Source: Nitrosomonas communis (lineage in GTDB: Bacteria > Pseudomonadota > Gammaproteobacteria > Burkholderiales > Nitrosomonadaceae). Taken from it: DNA of 42,959 nt. Position numbers and translations under genes: made by a program. The DNA lies in contig NZ_JAGFJM010000002.1 in assembly GCF_024102715.1 (NCBI RefSeq), forward strand, positions 1-42,959, given 5' to 3'. Under the pieces are notes generated by a model. It had not been told where the DNA came from, ran no database searches, and worked only from the letters and a program-made list of their open reading frames with translations. Of the stretch, positions 410 through 6,294 are shown piece by piece. How positions within the stretch are numbered: position 1 is the first letter of the stretch; each line of letters begins with the position of its first letter.

Positions 410-739
410 ATGAAAATAATAAAATTGGGACAGATAGTTTTTGGTTTCATATTCACAGCTATTCTCGCGATAAGCCCTGCATGGTCGACACCTGAGGAAA
501 CACCTCATCCCGGATTCGCATGGCAAAATGGCGCTGAAATCTATGCCAAGATTTGCGCTTATTGCCATGAAGCTCAAGTTGGACCGCCCATTCGCAATCG
601 AGAACTGCCCCCGGCATATATTCGTGCAATTGTCCGCAACGGCAAGCGGGCCATGCCCGCCTTCCGTTCTTCAGAAATCGATGATGAATCGTTAGTCAAA
701 TTAGTTGATTTCATTTCAAAAAAAGAAACTGAACATTAA
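410..739 (+). CDS. Small c-type cytochrome, 4-cresol dehydrogenase/eugenol hydroxylase cytochrome subunit type
   Basis: A 109-residue exported monohaem cytochrome c. An N-terminal signal peptide (about residues 1-26, ending near SPAWS) precedes the haem site CAYCH at residues 49-53. The probable axial methionine is Met82 in AMPAF. Spacing and flanking residues (VGPP, then IVRNGKRAMPAFRSSEIDD) closely resemble the cytochrome subunit of p-cresol methylhydroxylase as I remember it. In that family the cytochrome accepts electrons one at a time from the flavoprotein FAD and passes them to periplasmic carriers. A clear ribosome site (GGAGGA) sits just upstream of the ATG. The stop TAA is fused to the next gene's Shine-Dalgarno (TAAGGAGGT), so the two are translated as one operon with the flavoprotein two genes on. 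Confidence 0.85.
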   Translation: MKIIKLGQIVFGFIFTAILAISPAWSTPEETPHPGFAWQNGAEIYAKICAYCHEAQVGPPIRNRELPPAYIRAIVRNGKRAMPAFRSSEIDDESLVKLVDFISKKETEH

Positions 740-753
740 GGAGGTCGCCTACT

Positions 754-1713
754 ATGGACGAAGCACGACGCAGCCTCATCAAAGGTATGTTCACTGGTGG
801 AACGTGGCTAGCTCTGGGTTTACCTTCCATCGTTCCGGCCATACCCACCAATCAGCCTACTGCTGGCAAAGCCCGGAATTACAGGTTATTGCTGGGAAAT
901 ACAGCCATCAACGAAGCATTCAACAGCGGTGCCAATGCTGCCTGGACCAGCTATACCCACAACCAGCAGGGCTTGTTACCAGTGACAAAATTAGAAACTG
1001 CAGTCCTGGCTAATCCGTTTGGTATAGCTGAAGTATTGCAACAATCTCCTGGTCGCTGGATTGCCATTATGGATGATGCCATCGCAGCAATCTTCACTGA
1101 ATTGATCCGAAGTATTGATGGCCATCTGCTGTCGCTTGGTTTACATACGTATTCCGGCGATGACATGTCCCTGCCGCTTCGTCATGTGTGGACCACCGCA
1201 TCCCCTGTATTCAGTGCAGGAGGATTATTGGCATCCAGGCTTGCCCAAAATCAGCATAGTTTTTCCATCGTCGAACATTTTCTCGCAGAGGCAGAAACGG
1301 CAAGCAATGAGGCAATAAGAGGCCAATCAATATCCTGCTTCCGGTCTTACCGGTCAGCCGAGCAAGCGACAGTGCAGCTCCATTGTGCAGGTATTTCCCC
1401 GGTCGAAGCAAGTACGCTACTGGGCTGGAAAACATCCACAAAATGGGAATCCGTACCTCCCCCACCAAACGAACGCTCAACTTTCCCCAACAACGCAGCA
1501 AATGATGCAGCAACTGAACCTTACCAAGGTACAAGCTGGGTAGAAGCTACCGGCTATGCCATTGCTGCTACTGCGCTTGGCATGGAAATGTTGCAAGAAT
1601 CTTGCACTCGCCGTGCATTTGTATATGAATCAAGTCAAAGTAATCAGCATAGAGAGAGATCATCGCAAGGATTAGCGCAAACACATTTCGTCTCGTTCAT
1701 AATGGACGTGTAA
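754..1713 (+). CDS. Unrecognised protein with Tat-like signal, inside the cresol-hydroxylase-like operon
   Basis: A 319-residue protein I do not recognise. The N-terminus has ARRSLIKG (Arg5-Arg6) followed by a moderately hydrophobic stretch to about residue 30. This looks like a twin-arginine (Tat) export signal. No haem, Fe-S, nucleotide-binding or metal motif is evident. A segment near residues 125-160 contains GLHTYSGDD and PLRHVW, and a low-complexity Asn/Pro stretch follows around residues 230-255. A near-perfect ribosome site, AAGGAGGT, lies 8 bases before the ATG and overlaps the cytochrome stop. The gene sits exactly between the cytochrome and flavoprotein genes and shares their spacing, so a role in assembly, export or electron transfer of that enzyme is likely but is only an inference. 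Other possibilities are a periplasmic binding or accessory subunit. Confidence 0.75.
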   Translation: MDEARRSLIKGMFTGGTWLALGLPSIVPAIPTNQPTAGKARNYRLLLGNTAINEAFNSGANAAWTSYTHNQQGLLPVTKLETAVLANPFGIAEVLQQSPGRWIAIMDDAIAAIFTELIRSIDGHLLSLGLHTYSGDDMSLPLRHVWTTASPVFSAGGLLASRLAQNQHSFSIVEHFLAEAETASNEAIRGQSISCFRSYRSAEQATVQLHCAGISPVEASTLLGWKTSTKWESVPPPPNERSTFPNNAANDAATEPYQGTSWVEATGYAIAATALGMEMLQESCTRRAFVYESSQSNQHRERSSQGLAQTHFVSFIMDV

Positions 1714-1725
1714 GGAGTATACAGA

Positions 1726-3270
1726 ATGACCAGTCAATATATCGCATTACCCAAAGGCGTAGCCGAGCAAACTTTTGATGCGGCCATCAGCAGTTTCCGC
1801 AATGTGCTTGGTGATGCGGCTGTGCTCACGAGCGCAGAACAACTCGCACCCTACATCAAGACCATGATGCCGGTCCCCGATGCCAATCATATGCCTTCCG
1901 CAGCATTGCTGGCGACAACGGTCGAACAGATCCAGAAAATCGTTGCTATCTGTAATCAACACAAAGTGCCGATCTGGACGATTTCCACGGGGAAAAATCT
2001 GGGTTATGGCTCCGCAGCGCCAGCAGAACGCGGGCAGGTAGTACTTGATCTCAAACGCATGAACCGTATTCTCGAGGTCGATAAGGATTTGGCTTACGCC
2101 CTGGTTGAGCCAGGTGTCACCTATCAGCAATTGTATGATTATATCAACGAGCATAAGCTGGGATTATGGCTATCCATGCCCGCACCCACTGCCATTGCGG
2201 GGCCGGTCGGCAATACCCTGGATCGCGGGGTGGGTTATACCCCTTATGGCGAGCATTTTCTGTTTGCCTGTGGCATGGAAGTCGTATTAGCTAACGGCGA
2301 AGTATTGCGTACCGGCATGGGTTCGATGCCCAATTCCAATACCTGGCAGGTATTCAAATGGGGTTATGGTCCCTATCTGGATGGAATTTTCACACAATCC
2401 AACTATGGCATAGTCACTAAATTTGGTTTCTGGCTCATGCCGGCGCCACCGGCATTTAAACCTTTCGTTATTCAGTACCAGCATGAAGAAGATATCGTAG
2501 AAATTGTGGAAACGATCCGACCGTTGCGCATCAATGGCATCATTCCCAACGCGGTCGTCATCGCCCATGCATTATACGAAGCACCGGTAATAGCCCGACG
2601 TAGCGATTATGTCTCTGGGCCGGGTTCTATCTCGGATGAAGCTGTCCGTAAAATTACGAAGGATCATAAACTGGGAATCTGGAATGTGTATGCCGCGCTC
2701 TATGGCACTCAGGAACAAATCGACGTCAATTGGCAAATCGTCACACAAGCCTTTGGCCGATCAGGCAAAGCCAAGATCCTGACCGAACAGGAAATGGGCG
2801 ATGATCCTGCATTTAATTACCGTGCCAAACTGATGCGCGGAGATATGACGCTCACGGAGTTCTCCTTGTATAACTGGCGCGGAGGCGGCGGCTCGATGTG
2901 GTTTGCGCCTGTTTCGCAAGCACGTGGCAGTGAAACACTCAAACAAATGGCTCTTACCAAGCAGATTCTTGCTAAATATGGATTGGATTATTCCGGTGAA
3001 TTTATTGTCGGCATGCGCGACATGCATCATATCGTTGACGTGCTGTACGATAAAACCGATCCCGAACAAACGAAAGCTGCTTATCAATGTTTCGATGAAC
3101 TGCTGACCGTATTCTCGGCGCAAGGTTACGGCACCTATCGCGTCAACACTGCGTTTATGGATAAAGTGGCAGAGACCTATGGGCCGGTGCAGCGGAATGT
3201 GCACAAAACACTCAAACATGCGCTGGATCCGAATGGCATTCTTGCGCCGGGAAAATCGGGAATTCGATAG
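1726..3270 (+). CDS. 4-cresol dehydrogenase/eugenol hydroxylase-type FAD flavoprotein (VAO family)
   Basis: A 514-residue flavoprotein of the vanillyl-alcohol oxidase/p-cresol methylhydroxylase family. An N-terminal FAD-binding half carries KNLGYGSAAP (90-99) and GPVGNTLDRGVGYTPYGEHF (159-178). The C-terminal cap domain carries LYNWRGGGGSMWFAPVS (381-397). From memory of P. putida PchF, Tyr382 here corresponds to the covalent FAD-linking Tyr384. Tyr471-Arg472 correspond to the substrate-phenolate residues Tyr473-Arg474, and Tyr94 to the third phenol-binding tyrosine. The family dehydrogenates para-alkyl phenols to quinone methides, which water hydroxylates to 4-hydroxybenzyl-type alcohols. 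There is no signal peptide, as in PchF. The ribosome site TAAGGAG again contains the stop of the preceding gene. The exact substrate (4-cresol, 4-ethylphenol, vanillyl or eugenol type) cannot be read from sequence alone. Confidence 0.92.
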   Translation: MTSQYIALPKGVAEQTFDAAISSFRNVLGDAAVLTSAEQLAPYIKTMMPVPDANHMPSAALLATTVEQIQKIVAICNQHKVPIWTISTGKNLGYGSAAPAERGQVVLDLKRMNRILEVDKDLAYALVEPGVTYQQLYDYINEHKLGLWLSMPAPTAIAGPVGNTLDRGVGYTPYGEHFLFACGMEVVLANGEVLRTGMGSMPNSNTWQVFKWGYGPYLDGIFTQSNYGIVTKFGFWLMPAPPAFKPFVIQYQHEEDIVEIVETIRPLRINGIIPNAVVIAHALYEAPVIARRSDYVSGPGSISDEAVRKITKDHKLGIWNVYAALYGTQEQIDVNWQIVTQAFGRSGKAKILTEQEMGDDPAFNYRAKLMRGDMTLTEFSLYNWRGGGGSMWFAPVSQARGSETLKQMALTKQILAKYGLDYSGEFIVGMRDMHHIVDVLYDKTDPEQTKAAYQCFDELLTVFSAQGYGTYRVNTAFMDKVAETYGPVQRNVHKTLKHALDPNGILAPGKSGIR

Positions 3271-3366
3271 TTTCTGCTGCATCAATTACCGATGGCACTG
3301 ATACAAACGCATGCATAGAGAGGCGCTATAGCTCACAAAAAACAATCATTTTCAGTGGGAGGGCAA

Positions 3367-4479
3367 ATGAAAAAAATCAAGGCAGCAGTAATTCGACAAA
3401 AAGGAGGACCTTTTCAGATCGAAGAATTGTTGCAAGAGGAGCCACGTTCCGATGAAGTACGCGTTCGAATCGTGGCCACTGGCATGTGTCATACTGATAT
3501 GGTCGCACGCGATCAGCTCTATGATGTGCCGCTGCCAATTGTGCTTGGGCATGAGGGGGCGGGCGTCGTCGAGCAGGTCGGCAGCAATGTGAAAAAAGTA
3601 GCTGTTGGCGATCACGTCGTGCTGACCTATATGTGGTGCGGTCATTGCAGGCCATGTTTATCGGGTGATCTGACCTACTGTACGCATTTTTATGCGTTGA
3701 ATTTTGATGGAGCACGCGAGGATGGCAGCACTTCAACCTCTGGAGCAGCCACTGCACAAGAACCGATTCACGATCATTTCTTCGGGCAATCATCATTTGG
3801 CACCTTTGCGCTGGCGCACGAACGCAACGTGATCAAAGTACCGAAAGACGCACCACTGGAATTGCTTGGACCGCTCGGTTGCGGTATTCAAACTGGCGCG
3901 GGAGCCGTTATGAACGCATTAAAAGTCAGCCCTGGCAGCAGTTTTGTAACATTCGGCGGCGGCGCAGTAGGATTGAGCGCCGTAATGGCTGCACGTGTTG
4001 CAGGCGCTACTACCATTATCGCTGCAGACGTAGTTCCAGCGCGCCTGACTTTGGCCATGGAACTTGGCGCAACTCATACGATCAACAGTCGCGAAACCGA
4101 TCCAGTCGCGGCTGTTCGTGAAATTACGGCTGGAGGTGCTGATTTTGCACTCGAATCGAGTGGGCGCCCGACAGTATTACGCCAAGCCATTGATGCGCTG
4201 GCAATACGAGGGACCTGCGGTATAGTTGGCGCACCTGCCTTGGGGACTGAAGCTAGCTTTGATGTAAACGGCGTGATGACGACAGGAAAACGTATTATCG
4301 GGATCATTGAAGGTGACAGCAAGCCCGATCTTTTTATTCCTGCACTCGTTGCGCTTTACAAACAAGGAAGGTTTCCTTTCGACAAGCTAGTGAAGTTTTA
4401 TCCTCTCGATCGAATCAATCAGGCAGCGGAGGATAGTGAGAAAGGTATCACCATTAAGCCGGTTATCCGGCTGCAATGA
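3367..4479 (+). CDS. Zinc-dependent alcohol dehydrogenase, aryl-alcohol type
   Basis: A 371-residue medium-chain zinc dehydrogenase. The catalytic zinc ligands are Cys41, His62-Glu63 and Cys172. The structural zinc loop has four cysteines at 91, 94, 97 and 105 (C-x2-C-x2-C-x7-C). The Rossmann motif is GGGAVG (197-202), with Asp221 after the second strand, which favours NAD over NADP. The overall pattern is that of benzyl/aryl-alcohol dehydrogenases. I take the ATG at 3367, which has GGGAGG just upstream, over an in-frame GTG at 3355. It lies 96 bases after the flavoprotein gene on the same strand. It plausibly oxidises the 4-hydroxybenzyl-type alcohol made by that enzyme to the aldehyde. No aldehyde dehydrogenase gene follows in the window. 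Confidence 0.9.
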
Positions 4480-4989
4480 CAAAATTCATGAAATTTCACT
4501 CAGTATACCGACTTTAGCCGATTCACCAGAAAATGCAAAGGAAAGAATCAGATCATAAGAAAAAATGGACCATCTCTTTTACTCCATACCAATTTCGACC
4601 AACTACCGATTAAGGGCAATGGTAGCACGGAAAGGGACCAAAGGTTTTACCTGACCTGAACTTTGCGCAGCAACTTGCGACAGGCATGAACCATATCAAT
4701 GATCAATCAGTGAATGATTTACCCTATAATCCCCTCGGCAGCGAAAAGAATTCAGGTGTTGACCGCTTCAATGGTGTTTGAGCCATGGCAATATTCACGC
4801 CTGATCAATGGATCACCATTCAACATACGCTGTGTCACTATCCTGTCAATGCACAAACTGTTTTACCGGGGATGAAACCAAAAGTAGGCAAAACGATAAA
4901 ATAGCAGCAAGACTACACGATTATACGATCTTTCAGTCGCTGCCATATTTGCAACGATCTAATTACTCATACCTTCAATAAGAAAAATA
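4480..4989 (+). other. Gene-free stretch with possible decayed coding remnant
   Basis: A 510-base gap between the alcohol dehydrogenase and the FMN reductase genes. One plus-strand frame (about 4563-4904) reads as protein-like text interrupted by stops. Segments such as DLNFAQQLATGMNHINDQSV and MAIFTPDQWITIQHTLCHYP share this frame, separated by TGA or TAG codons. No segment is long enough to be a gene with a believable start, and I do not recognise the family. It may be a pseudogene remnant or chance. No tRNA, clear terminator or repeat was found. Confidence 0.3.
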
Positions 4990-5556
4990 ATGACACTTAA
5001 ACTCCATATTATCATTTGCAGTACCCGACCAGGTCGGGTTGGACCATATGTTGCTAAGTGGTTCCATCACATGGCAATACAGCATGGTCAATTTGAAGCC
5101 ATACTGATCGACCTTGCAGCATTCAATCTTCCTGTTTACGATGAGCCAGAACATCCTGTTCTCCAGCATTACCGGCATGAGCACACCAAAAACTGGGCCG
5201 CCAGCGTCAATACGGCAGATGCCTATGTGTTCGTTACTCCAGAGTATAACTTCGGCCCCCCTCCATCGCTTCTGAATGCACTGAACTATGTTTATAAAGA
5301 ATGGAATTATAAGCCAGCCGGTATCGTCAGTTACGGTGGCGTTTCAGGAGGACTCCGATCCGCACTGATTGAGAAACTGACCTTGACTACCTTGAAAATG
5401 ATGCCTATGGTAGAAGCAGTGTCAGTTCAAAATGTTTCCACTCTCATTGATGACAGCAAGAATTTCACACCTAGCGACCATCACATCAGCTCAGGCACAT
5501 CTCTGCTCAACGAGCTGTACAAATGGGCACAGGCGCTTAAAACGATGAGAACATGA
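4990..5556 (+). CDS. NAD(P)H-dependent FMN reductase family protein
   Basis: A 188-residue flavodoxin-fold protein of the NADPH-dependent FMN reductase family. The phosphate-binding loop is STRPGRVG (11-18) after the first strand. The isoalloxazine loop is TPEYNFGPP (83-91), and a GGVSGGLRS turn lies around 116-124. Members reduce free FMN or quinones, azo compounds or metals with NAD(P)H. Length and motif order are normal for the family. It stands alone, 510 bases after the alcohol dehydrogenase gene, on the same strand. A role in quinone or quinone-methide detoxification next to the cresol-hydroxylase-like genes is attractive but is only an inference from position. Confidence 0.85.
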   Translation: MTLKLHIIICSTRPGRVGPYVAKWFHHMAIQHGQFEAILIDLAAFNLPVYDEPEHPVLQHYRHEHTKNWAASVNTADAYVFVTPEYNFGPPPSLLNALNYVYKEWNYKPAGIVSYGGVSGGLRSALIEKLTLTTLKMMPMVEAVSVQNVSTLIDDSKNFTPSDHHISSGTSLLNELYKWAQALKTMRT

Positions 5557-5682: not shown

Positions 5683-6294
5683 ATGGATTTTCCCGATTTT
5701 TATGAACTGGCTCCTGTCGTCCGGACGCGCGATCCATTTGCAGCCTTATTAGGTGCGGCACGTGATGGCATACTGGAATACCGTTATCTCGATGCGGTGC
5801 GGCTGGCCGGTCATTCATGCCCTACTGTTGCGGGTGCATTCCTCATCGGGCGCGCCGCCTTGCATGCACTCTACCCAGATGAGCCTGCCGAGCGTGGCGC
5901 GATTGCAGTGCATATGCCTGCGCCAGAGTGTGAAGGCACCACCGGTGTAATGGCGCAAGTATTGACATTATTGACAGGTGCAGCGGCCAGCAATGGCTTC
6001 CATGGCATACAAGGACATTTCAAGCGCATGGGCTTGCTTAGTTTTGCAGCGCAGCGGGAAGGAGAAGCCATACACTTTAAGCGCCTCGATAGTGGGACAA
6101 GTGTAGCCGTGGAACTCGACATTTCTTGGGTACCGGGTGACCCAGCGCAAAGCGGGCGCTTGATGGCCATCTTACAAAATCGTGCAGATGATACATTGCG
6201 TCGCGCCTTTGCCGATGCTTGGCAAGCACGCGTGCGCCGTTTGTTATTGGAATTCGCAGATGATCCACGGGTAATTCGCGTCAGGCCAGTATAA
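5683..6294 (+). CDS. FmdE-like domain protein of unknown function
   Basis: A 203-residue soluble protein. The stretch AGHSCPTVAGAFL (42-54), with His44 and Cys46, and a second cysteine in PECEGTTGVMAQVLTLLTGA (81-100) match the pattern I associate with the FmdE/formylmethanofuran dehydrogenase subunit E-like family. That family has an N-terminal metal-binding GHxCP motif followed by a Cys-containing segment before a conserved TG. There is no C-terminal zinc ribbon. Outside methanogens the function of these proteins is unknown. The gene stands alone, with SD-like AGAGG before the ATG, 126 bases after the FMN reductase gene and convergent with the symporter gene. Confidence 0.6.
   Translation: MDFPDFYELAPVVRTRDPFAALLGAARDGILEYRYLDAVRLAGHSCPTVAGAFLIGRAALHALYPDEPAERGAIAVHMPAPECEGTTGVMAQVLTLLTGAAASNGFHGIQGHFKRMGLLSFAAQREGEAIHFKRLDSGTSVAVELDISWVPGDPAQSGRLMAILQNRADDTLRRAFADAWQARVRRLLLEFADDPRVIRVRPV

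Follow-up and report, generated by a model that had tools for sequence, protein, structure and literature searches.

A p-cresol methylhydroxylase-type flavocytochrome cassette with a Tat-signal partner gene in Nitrosomonas communis and other nitrifying bacteria

We report on a cassette of four genes in a stretch of 42,959 nucleotides from Nitrosomonas communis (NCBI RefSeq assembly GCF_024102715.1, contig NZ_JAGFJM010000002.1, positions 1 to 42,959 of the forward strand), hereafter referred to as the window. The genes lie head to tail on the plus strand and encode, in this order, a small c-type cytochrome, a protein with a twin-arginine translocation (Tat) signal that we call X (or PchX), a flavoprotein of the p-cresol methylhydroxylase (PCMH) type and an alcohol dehydrogenase (ADH), which as listed spans 3355-4479 (Table 1). 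An initial annotation of the same DNA had described the flavoprotein, cytochrome and dehydrogenase genes as a cluster, and these three lie where it had placed them, with database matches far beyond chance; the open reading frame (ORF) for X and the remnant of an aldehyde dehydrogenase (ALDH) gene further downstream had been overlooked. The genome (3.05 Mb, 99.94% complete) has amoA, in keeping with the ammonia-oxidising host assumed in that annotation.

Table 1. Features of the cassette and its downstream flank in the window
Feature	Position	Strand	Remarks
PchC-like c-type cytochrome with N-terminal signal-like stretch	410..739	+	haem motif CAYCH; AMPAF near the expected Met ligand
PchX-like protein (X), 319 aa	754..1713	+	N-terminal Tat motif RRSLIKG; between cytochrome and flavoprotein genes; proposed export partner of the flavoprotein
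PchF-like flavoprotein subunit of PCMH-type flavocytochrome	1726..3270	+	PCMH homology; no signal peptide seen
Zn-dependent benzyl/aryl-alcohol dehydrogenase	3367..4479	+	PF08240 and PF00107; listed ORF opens at GTG 3355
Aldehyde dehydrogenase remnant	4656..4862	+	tblastn: 61% identical to residues 431-499 of the full gene (500 aa) at locus L041
NADPH-dependent FMN/quinone reductase-like gene, cassette neighbour	4990..5556	+	PF03358, E 3e-32

The best PDB matches of the flavoprotein, which has the PF01565 fold, are the Pseudomonas putida PCMH structures 1dii and 1wve (E about 2e-230), with a bit score of 769 compared to 456 for eugenol oxidase and 392 for vanillyl-alcohol oxidase (VAO); the proposal of a PCMH-type rather than a VAO-type enzyme is thus borne out by the scores. 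Tyr382, Tyr471 and Arg472 sit where they had been placed before and align with the PCMH sequence, Tyr382 with PCMH Tyr384, which we take to be the Tyr that carries the covalent FAD; Tyr94, Tyr471 and Arg472 are presumably the Tyr, Tyr and Arg that bind the phenol. Conserved residues comprise Tyr94, Glu378, Tyr382, Glu425, Asp438, Tyr471 and Arg472, and in an alignment of the clade described below (62 rows, corresponding to 47 distinct sequences as some genomes are present in two collections) Tyr382 and Tyr94 are found in 62 of 62 rows and Tyr471 and Arg472 in 61 of 62. VAO and eugenol oxidase have no cytochrome partner and a His-linked FAD. This identity was ruled out, given the cytochrome gene linked to the flavoprotein gene, as expected for PCMH, and the Tyr at the position of FAD linkage. 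For the cytochrome (PF13442, E 2.3e-21) the sole PDB match at E 0.001 was PchC (1dii_C, E 7.9e-19), and the nearest solved relatives of the dehydrogenase are 5tnx (E 4.5e-160) and benzyl alcohol dehydrogenase 1f8f (E 7e-146). Judged from where the alignments begin, ATG 3367 is a likelier start of the dehydrogenase gene than GTG 3355, and from its family the enzyme would use NAD. Hence, judging by its genes and residues, the cassette encodes a real PCMH-type flavocytochrome, the enzyme activity and periplasmic site of which are predicted.

To place the flavoprotein we used a tree of 82 sequences rooted on L040, and compared VAO and eugenol oxidase through their PDB matches. The flavoproteins from Nitrosomonas, Nitrosospira, Nitrotoga and the Nitrospira family form one clade (40 rows, support 100/100) with the other 42 rows outside it, and this clade lies among homologues from cresol degraders. 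Together with PCMH being the nearest solved relative, this places the flavoprotein inside the PCMH/EUGH group, where the initial annotation had expected it. Three Nitrotoga-type rows are nested within the Nitrosomonas part (98/85), the Nitrospira-family rows make up two groups whose basal order is not settled by the tree, and the sister group of the clade consists of L094/L178, L095 and L096. The gene order cytochrome-X-PchF-ADH is common to the Nitrosomonas, Nitrosospira and Nitrospira-family loci. The 79-89% identity between phyla and the nesting point to horizontal transfer.

Within the Nitrosomonadaceae, 48 of 125 genomes have a flavoprotein match at E 1e-80 or better, and the close type is present in 44, i.e. 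the window genome and 43 others at 85-94% identity, so that the cassette, which the initial annotation had called unexpected in such a host, is not rare in this group. The host's genus group has the close type in 27 of 85 genomes, and a second genus that includes Nitrosospira has it in 17 of 23; N. europaea ATCC 25978 (L082) is one strain with the cassette; two further genera gave no match in 17 genomes at E 1e-80. A P. putida-like PCMH, at 65-67% identity, is found in four members of the host's genus group, and in the tree the rows for four such loci lie elsewhere; they apparently represent a separate acquisition. The loci are L061, L062/L118, L063/L124 and L064, and their hosts include N. 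halophila and a bin that bears the label N. eutropha. Two other loci in the collection deserve mention: L065 (7303-9937, genome G031) holds a distantly related PCMH-like set, at 32-34% identity, that comes with a Tat-signal gene and a cytochrome of its own and in which the flavoprotein match has a stop codon, and L066 (6137-8789, genome G050) is a partial second copy with WrbA, a LigB-type dioxygenase, the cytochrome and most of X, and no flavoprotein.

Outside the family, the close type was found in 14 of 175 genomes of the Nitrospira family (79-89% identity; two copies broken or split). Contamination of these bins was rejected for three of the 14 (G152, G155 and G185), in each of which one contig of 4.1-4.3 Mb carries the cassette. 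At 90-91% identity, the flavoprotein is also present in Candidatus Nitrotoga fabula (L084), in a Gallionellaceae bin (L080) and in genome G606, which clusters with the other two. In an even sample of the order, 12 of 399 genomes matched at E 1e-100, and identities of at least 79% were confined to G606 and four members of the host's genus group. The scan across genomes used the best 80 of 571 confirmed loci, and members of the clade in non-nitrifiers may therefore be missed.

The nitrifier status of the hosts was assessed for 19 genomes with the cassette. Ammonia monooxygenase (AMO) was detected in three, two ammonia-oxidiser controls and G185 (L171, Nitrospira family), which with both AMO and the cassette is probably a comammox bacterium and is the only one with AMO among the 17 from outside the Nitrosomonadaceae. 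It was not detected in the other 16; bins can miss AMO, as exemplified by G135 (L074), inferred to belong to the Nitrosomonas group. A large NxrA-like protein is present in 13 of these 16 (TIGR03479, E 1.8e-57 or better) and, with G185, in 14 of the 19; the matches are below the curated cut-off, and the same family matched 11 of 14 control genomes. These hosts would accordingly be candidate nitrite oxidisers. G125 (L080, with a weak NxrA-type match), G159 and G285 have neither AMO nor a strong NxrA-like match. With the exception of these three, which have no clear nitrifier markers, the clade members found so far appear to reside in nitrifiers of unrelated lineages.

No signal peptide was seen in the flavoprotein, and X offers a testable answer to how it would get to the periplasm. 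The N-terminus of X in the window combines RRSLIKG with a following hydrophobic stretch and was classed as a Tat signal. Otherwise X has no Pfam, NCBIfam or PDB match, and its predicted structure (pLDDT 79.5, pTM 0.81) gave no PDB fold match by Foldseek at E 0.001. In profile comparisons X is homologous to the gene at the same position of Pseudomonas operons (mature part, E 3.6e-10 in a single comparison), and the mature part also matches products from Burkholderiales, Aromatoleum and alphaproteobacteria. The X gene was found in exactly the 44 Nitrosomonadaceae genomes with the close-type flavoprotein, and it diverges fast, with 33-59% identity across the compared loci beside the 85-94% of the flavoprotein; Arg101, Glu116, Arg119, His131, His144 and Cys284 are invariant in 33 of 33 aligned sequences.

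Among distinct PCMH-type operons with a gap of at least 200 bases between the cytochrome and flavoprotein genes, the product encoded in between carries RR among its 25 N-terminal residues in 95 of 98, compared to 128 of 561 control ORFs (many of the operons are close relatives, such that the counts are not independent, and the controls include some X genes). The exceptions are L070 and L091, which have no in-frame gene by the rule used though tblastn finds X, and the frame-shifted L115. A stricter pattern, RR-xxx-polar, was matched by 88 of these 95 products within 30 residues of the N-terminus and by 56 of the 561 controls within 25. The N-terminal hydropathy peak of PchF has a mean of 0.66 and a highest value of 1.31 vs a mean of 1.66 for X. 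We also covered 17 of 21 plasmid records (H14 was left out, and H3, H12 and H19 look like near-copies of others) and in 13 found a Tat-like ORF that adjoins either the flavoprotein or its cytochrome. No X was found in two Novosphingobium plasmids, L185 and L191, where the flavoprotein itself bears a Tat-like signal; L195 has its upstream region cut by an insertion element, and L188 has no convincing Tat-like ORF. Twelve of the 17 plasmids have a cytochrome-type ORF close to the flavoprotein; the exceptions are L187, L188, L192, L194 and L196.

The Tat-signal partner in 95 of 98 operons and the signal on the flavoprotein itself in two partnerless plasmids suggest Tat hitchhiking, and, read most simply, they mean that the folded flavoprotein usually has a route through Tat, in most cases via a hitchhiking partner. 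X might instead be a maturation factor, acting for example in flavinylation or in assembly of the subunits in the periplasm. It looks exported, adjoins the enzyme genes and has invariant residues; the fast divergence of its body and the Tat-like signals on the L185 and L191 flavoproteins, which export explains directly, make this role rather unlikely. A 2025 paper on a PCMH-like enzyme proposes the signal peptide of the cytochrome as export guide (PMC12724174). An export role for a PchX-like gene was not found in the literature searched, a partial set to which the original P. putida pch papers did not belong.

Purifying pressure was compared in pairs of genes, and decay across 25 loci of ammonia oxidisers with this PchF, the window included. 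The ratio of nonsynonymous to synonymous substitutions (dN/dS) is 0.014-0.034 for PchF (seven of eight pairs, the eighth having a saturated dS), 0.049-0.070 for ADH (five of six pairs), 0.137-0.283 for X (eight pairs) and 0.116-0.258 for the cytochrome (six pairs); many synonymous distances are near saturation, which makes the ratios rough, and the L080 cytochrome stretch included a stop. A full-length ALDH gene follows downstream in 12 of the 25 loci. At the place equivalent to the window remnant, L041 has an intact Aldedh gene (PF00171, E 6.9e-155), and both L041 and L042, which share the next downstream genes with the window, have kept the full ALDH. A WrbA-like gene is present upstream of the cassette in eight of the 25, and this neighbourhood, including the LigB-type dioxygenase gene considered below, suggests phenol or quinone stress.

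The sequences themselves give the gene content, the residues, the clade, the selection, the decay and the Tat motifs; these are consistent with a scheme in which substrate, electron flow, hitchhiking export and benefit to the cell are predicted. The flavoprotein would fold and bind FAD covalently via Tyr382 in the cytoplasm, cross the membrane with X by the Tat pathway, and associate in the periplasm with the cytochrome, which would be exported on its own. The complex would then abstract hydrides from a phenol with a para substituent, namely p-cresol, a 4-alkylphenol or 4-hydroxybenzyl alcohol, with water supplying the oxygen, and the electrons would go via PchC to the periplasmic cytochrome c pool. 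ADH, plus ALDH in some relatives, would take the products to 4-hydroxybenzoate and make NADH; in the window genome the ALDH gene has decayed and the pathway would be truncated. PobA (4-hydroxybenzoate hydroxylase, TIGR02360) was above cut-off in two of 17 genomes, both Pseudomonas controls, and in none of 14 nitrifiers nor in Herminiimonas, in a genome-wide search that covered PobA and no further route to ring cleavage. Given this absence of PobA matches, the module would probably serve phenol detoxification and electron harvest, not carbon supply; the strongly constrained core and the decaying ALDH step also led us to prefer this role. Taken together, we regard a working PCMH-type flavocytochrome c that spread horizontally, is exported by Tat hitchhiking on X and acts in phenol detoxification and electron harvest as reasonably probable.

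Several observations weigh against this interpretation. The distribution is patchy, with 81 of 125 family genomes lacking the close type, and the search for later breakdown steps covered PobA alone. At positions 233, 284 and 430 of the flavoprotein, at least 95% of the clade has Phe, Tyr and Met, with Met, Trp and Trp in 54, 64 and 62, respectively, of 68 sequences from outside it; the substrate may therefore not be p-cresol. ADH is unbroken in 22 of the 25 ammonia-oxidiser loci, split in two and absent in one, and ALDH is present as fragments in three (the window, L050 and L068) and was not seen on the same strand in 10. These losses argue that the later steps are dispensable; they also leave the cytochrome, X and PchF as the kept core. 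A LigB-type dioxygenase gene, split in one case, lies upstream of the cassette in 12 of the 25 loci. With respect to export, X of the Halomonas and Sulfuricurvum operons shows no detectable similarity to nitrifier X in profile comparisons, and four of the five plasmid flavoproteins without a linked cytochrome (same strand, 2.5 kb on each side) still have a Tat-like ORF, so the Tat-signal ORF is not tied to the flavocytochrome form.

A further-reaching version, which we consider doubtful, is that of a guild-specific module that shields nitrifiers from phenolic inhibitors and feeds their periplasmic cytochromes, and that for this reason was handed on between ammonia oxidisers, nitrite oxidisers and a bacterium that is probably comammox, with PchX providing for Tat hitchhiking; the inhibitors would then include p-cresol and plant-made phenolic nitrification inhibitors. 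Likewise doubtful is ordinary cresol catabolism, i.e. a standard PCMH for environmental p-cresol with unlinked genes finishing the pathway and nothing special to nitrifiers beyond shared habitats. The active-site residues match PCMH, ADH is accompanied by ALDH in relatives and the LigB-type gene adjoins the cassette in about half of the loci, as such a pathway might have it; set against this are the result for PobA within the scope given, the decayed or unseen ALDH, the separation of ordinary degraders from the nitrifier clade at full support, and hosts that are known as chemolithoautotrophs.

A source of phenols within the cell had been put forward in the initial annotation, namely co-oxidation of aromatics by the cell's own AMO followed by oxidation of the products. 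AMO forms phenols from some aromatics and the host has AMO; as a general source this is nevertheless very improbable with AMO unseen in 16 of 19 cassette genomes, even if bins can miss it, and with 81 family genomes lacking the cassette, 17 of them in two genera outside the AMO check. Ammonia oxidisers may, however, cross-feed phenols to other cells. A role in providing ubiquinone synthesis with 4-hydroxybenzoate, or in clearing p-cresol from the thiamine enzyme ThiH, for which the expected product (4-hydroxybenzaldehyde or 4-hydroxybenzoate) would fit, was rejected and merits hardly any credence, since the chorismate lyase UbiC is present in 114 of 125 family genomes including that of the window and ThiH in none of the 125 (Escherichia coli and other controls matched).

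Downstream of the ALDH remnant, the reductase-like gene at 4990-5556 has relatives (80-87% identity) downstream of the cassette in L041, L042, L054, L055, L057, L067 and L069. An ORF at 5683-6294 encodes a 203-aa protein with no Pfam match that to our eye resembles FmdE, presumably by a shared motif; apart from the window, seven of 24 loci from ammonia oxidisers have a counterpart downstream of the cassette.

The usual view of nitrifiers is that ammonia or nitrite sustains them and that phenols affect them chiefly as inhibitors. Our data suggest that such microbes may also take electrons from, or detoxify, phenols. A strongly constrained phenol-oxidising complex common to ammonia and nitrite oxidisers would have consequences for mixotrophy, for how nitrifiers tolerate phenolic nitrification inhibitors and for the removal of p-cresol in nitrifying sludge. 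The titles and abstract openings of the literature searched contain no description of a PCMH-type enzyme in nitrifiers; two papers mention or cite studies of p-cresol in nitrifying reactors (PMC11761499, PMC8853641).

In comparison with known systems, the cassette shares with P. putida PchCF (1dii, 1wve) a flavoprotein with a small c-type cytochrome, the presumed FAD Tyr and the presumed phenol-binding Tyr/Tyr-Arg, and with Pseudomonas operons the Tat-signal gene between the cytochrome and flavoprotein genes. It differs from PchCF in its separate clade, the linked ADH, the three clade-specific residues and the lack of PobA in the 14 nitrifiers, and X is mostly 291-346 aa in nitrifiers vs 229-231 aa in Pseudomonas. 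The sister loci from Herminiimonas, Rhodocyclales and a groundwater betaproteobacterium (L095, L096 and L094/L178, respectively; 70-75% identity) have the same cytochrome-X-PchF order and a homologous X; there ALDH comes after PchF (39-42% identity to that of L041) and no ADH of the nitrifier type was seen. The benzyl alcohol dehydrogenase 1f8f and 5tnx belong to the same Zn-ADH family as the window enzyme, which sits in a PCMH cassette and has a predicted substrate. Finally, the combination of a signal-less, cofactor-bearing subunit and a Tat-signal partner is that of Tat hitchhiker export, as for hydrogenase subunits.

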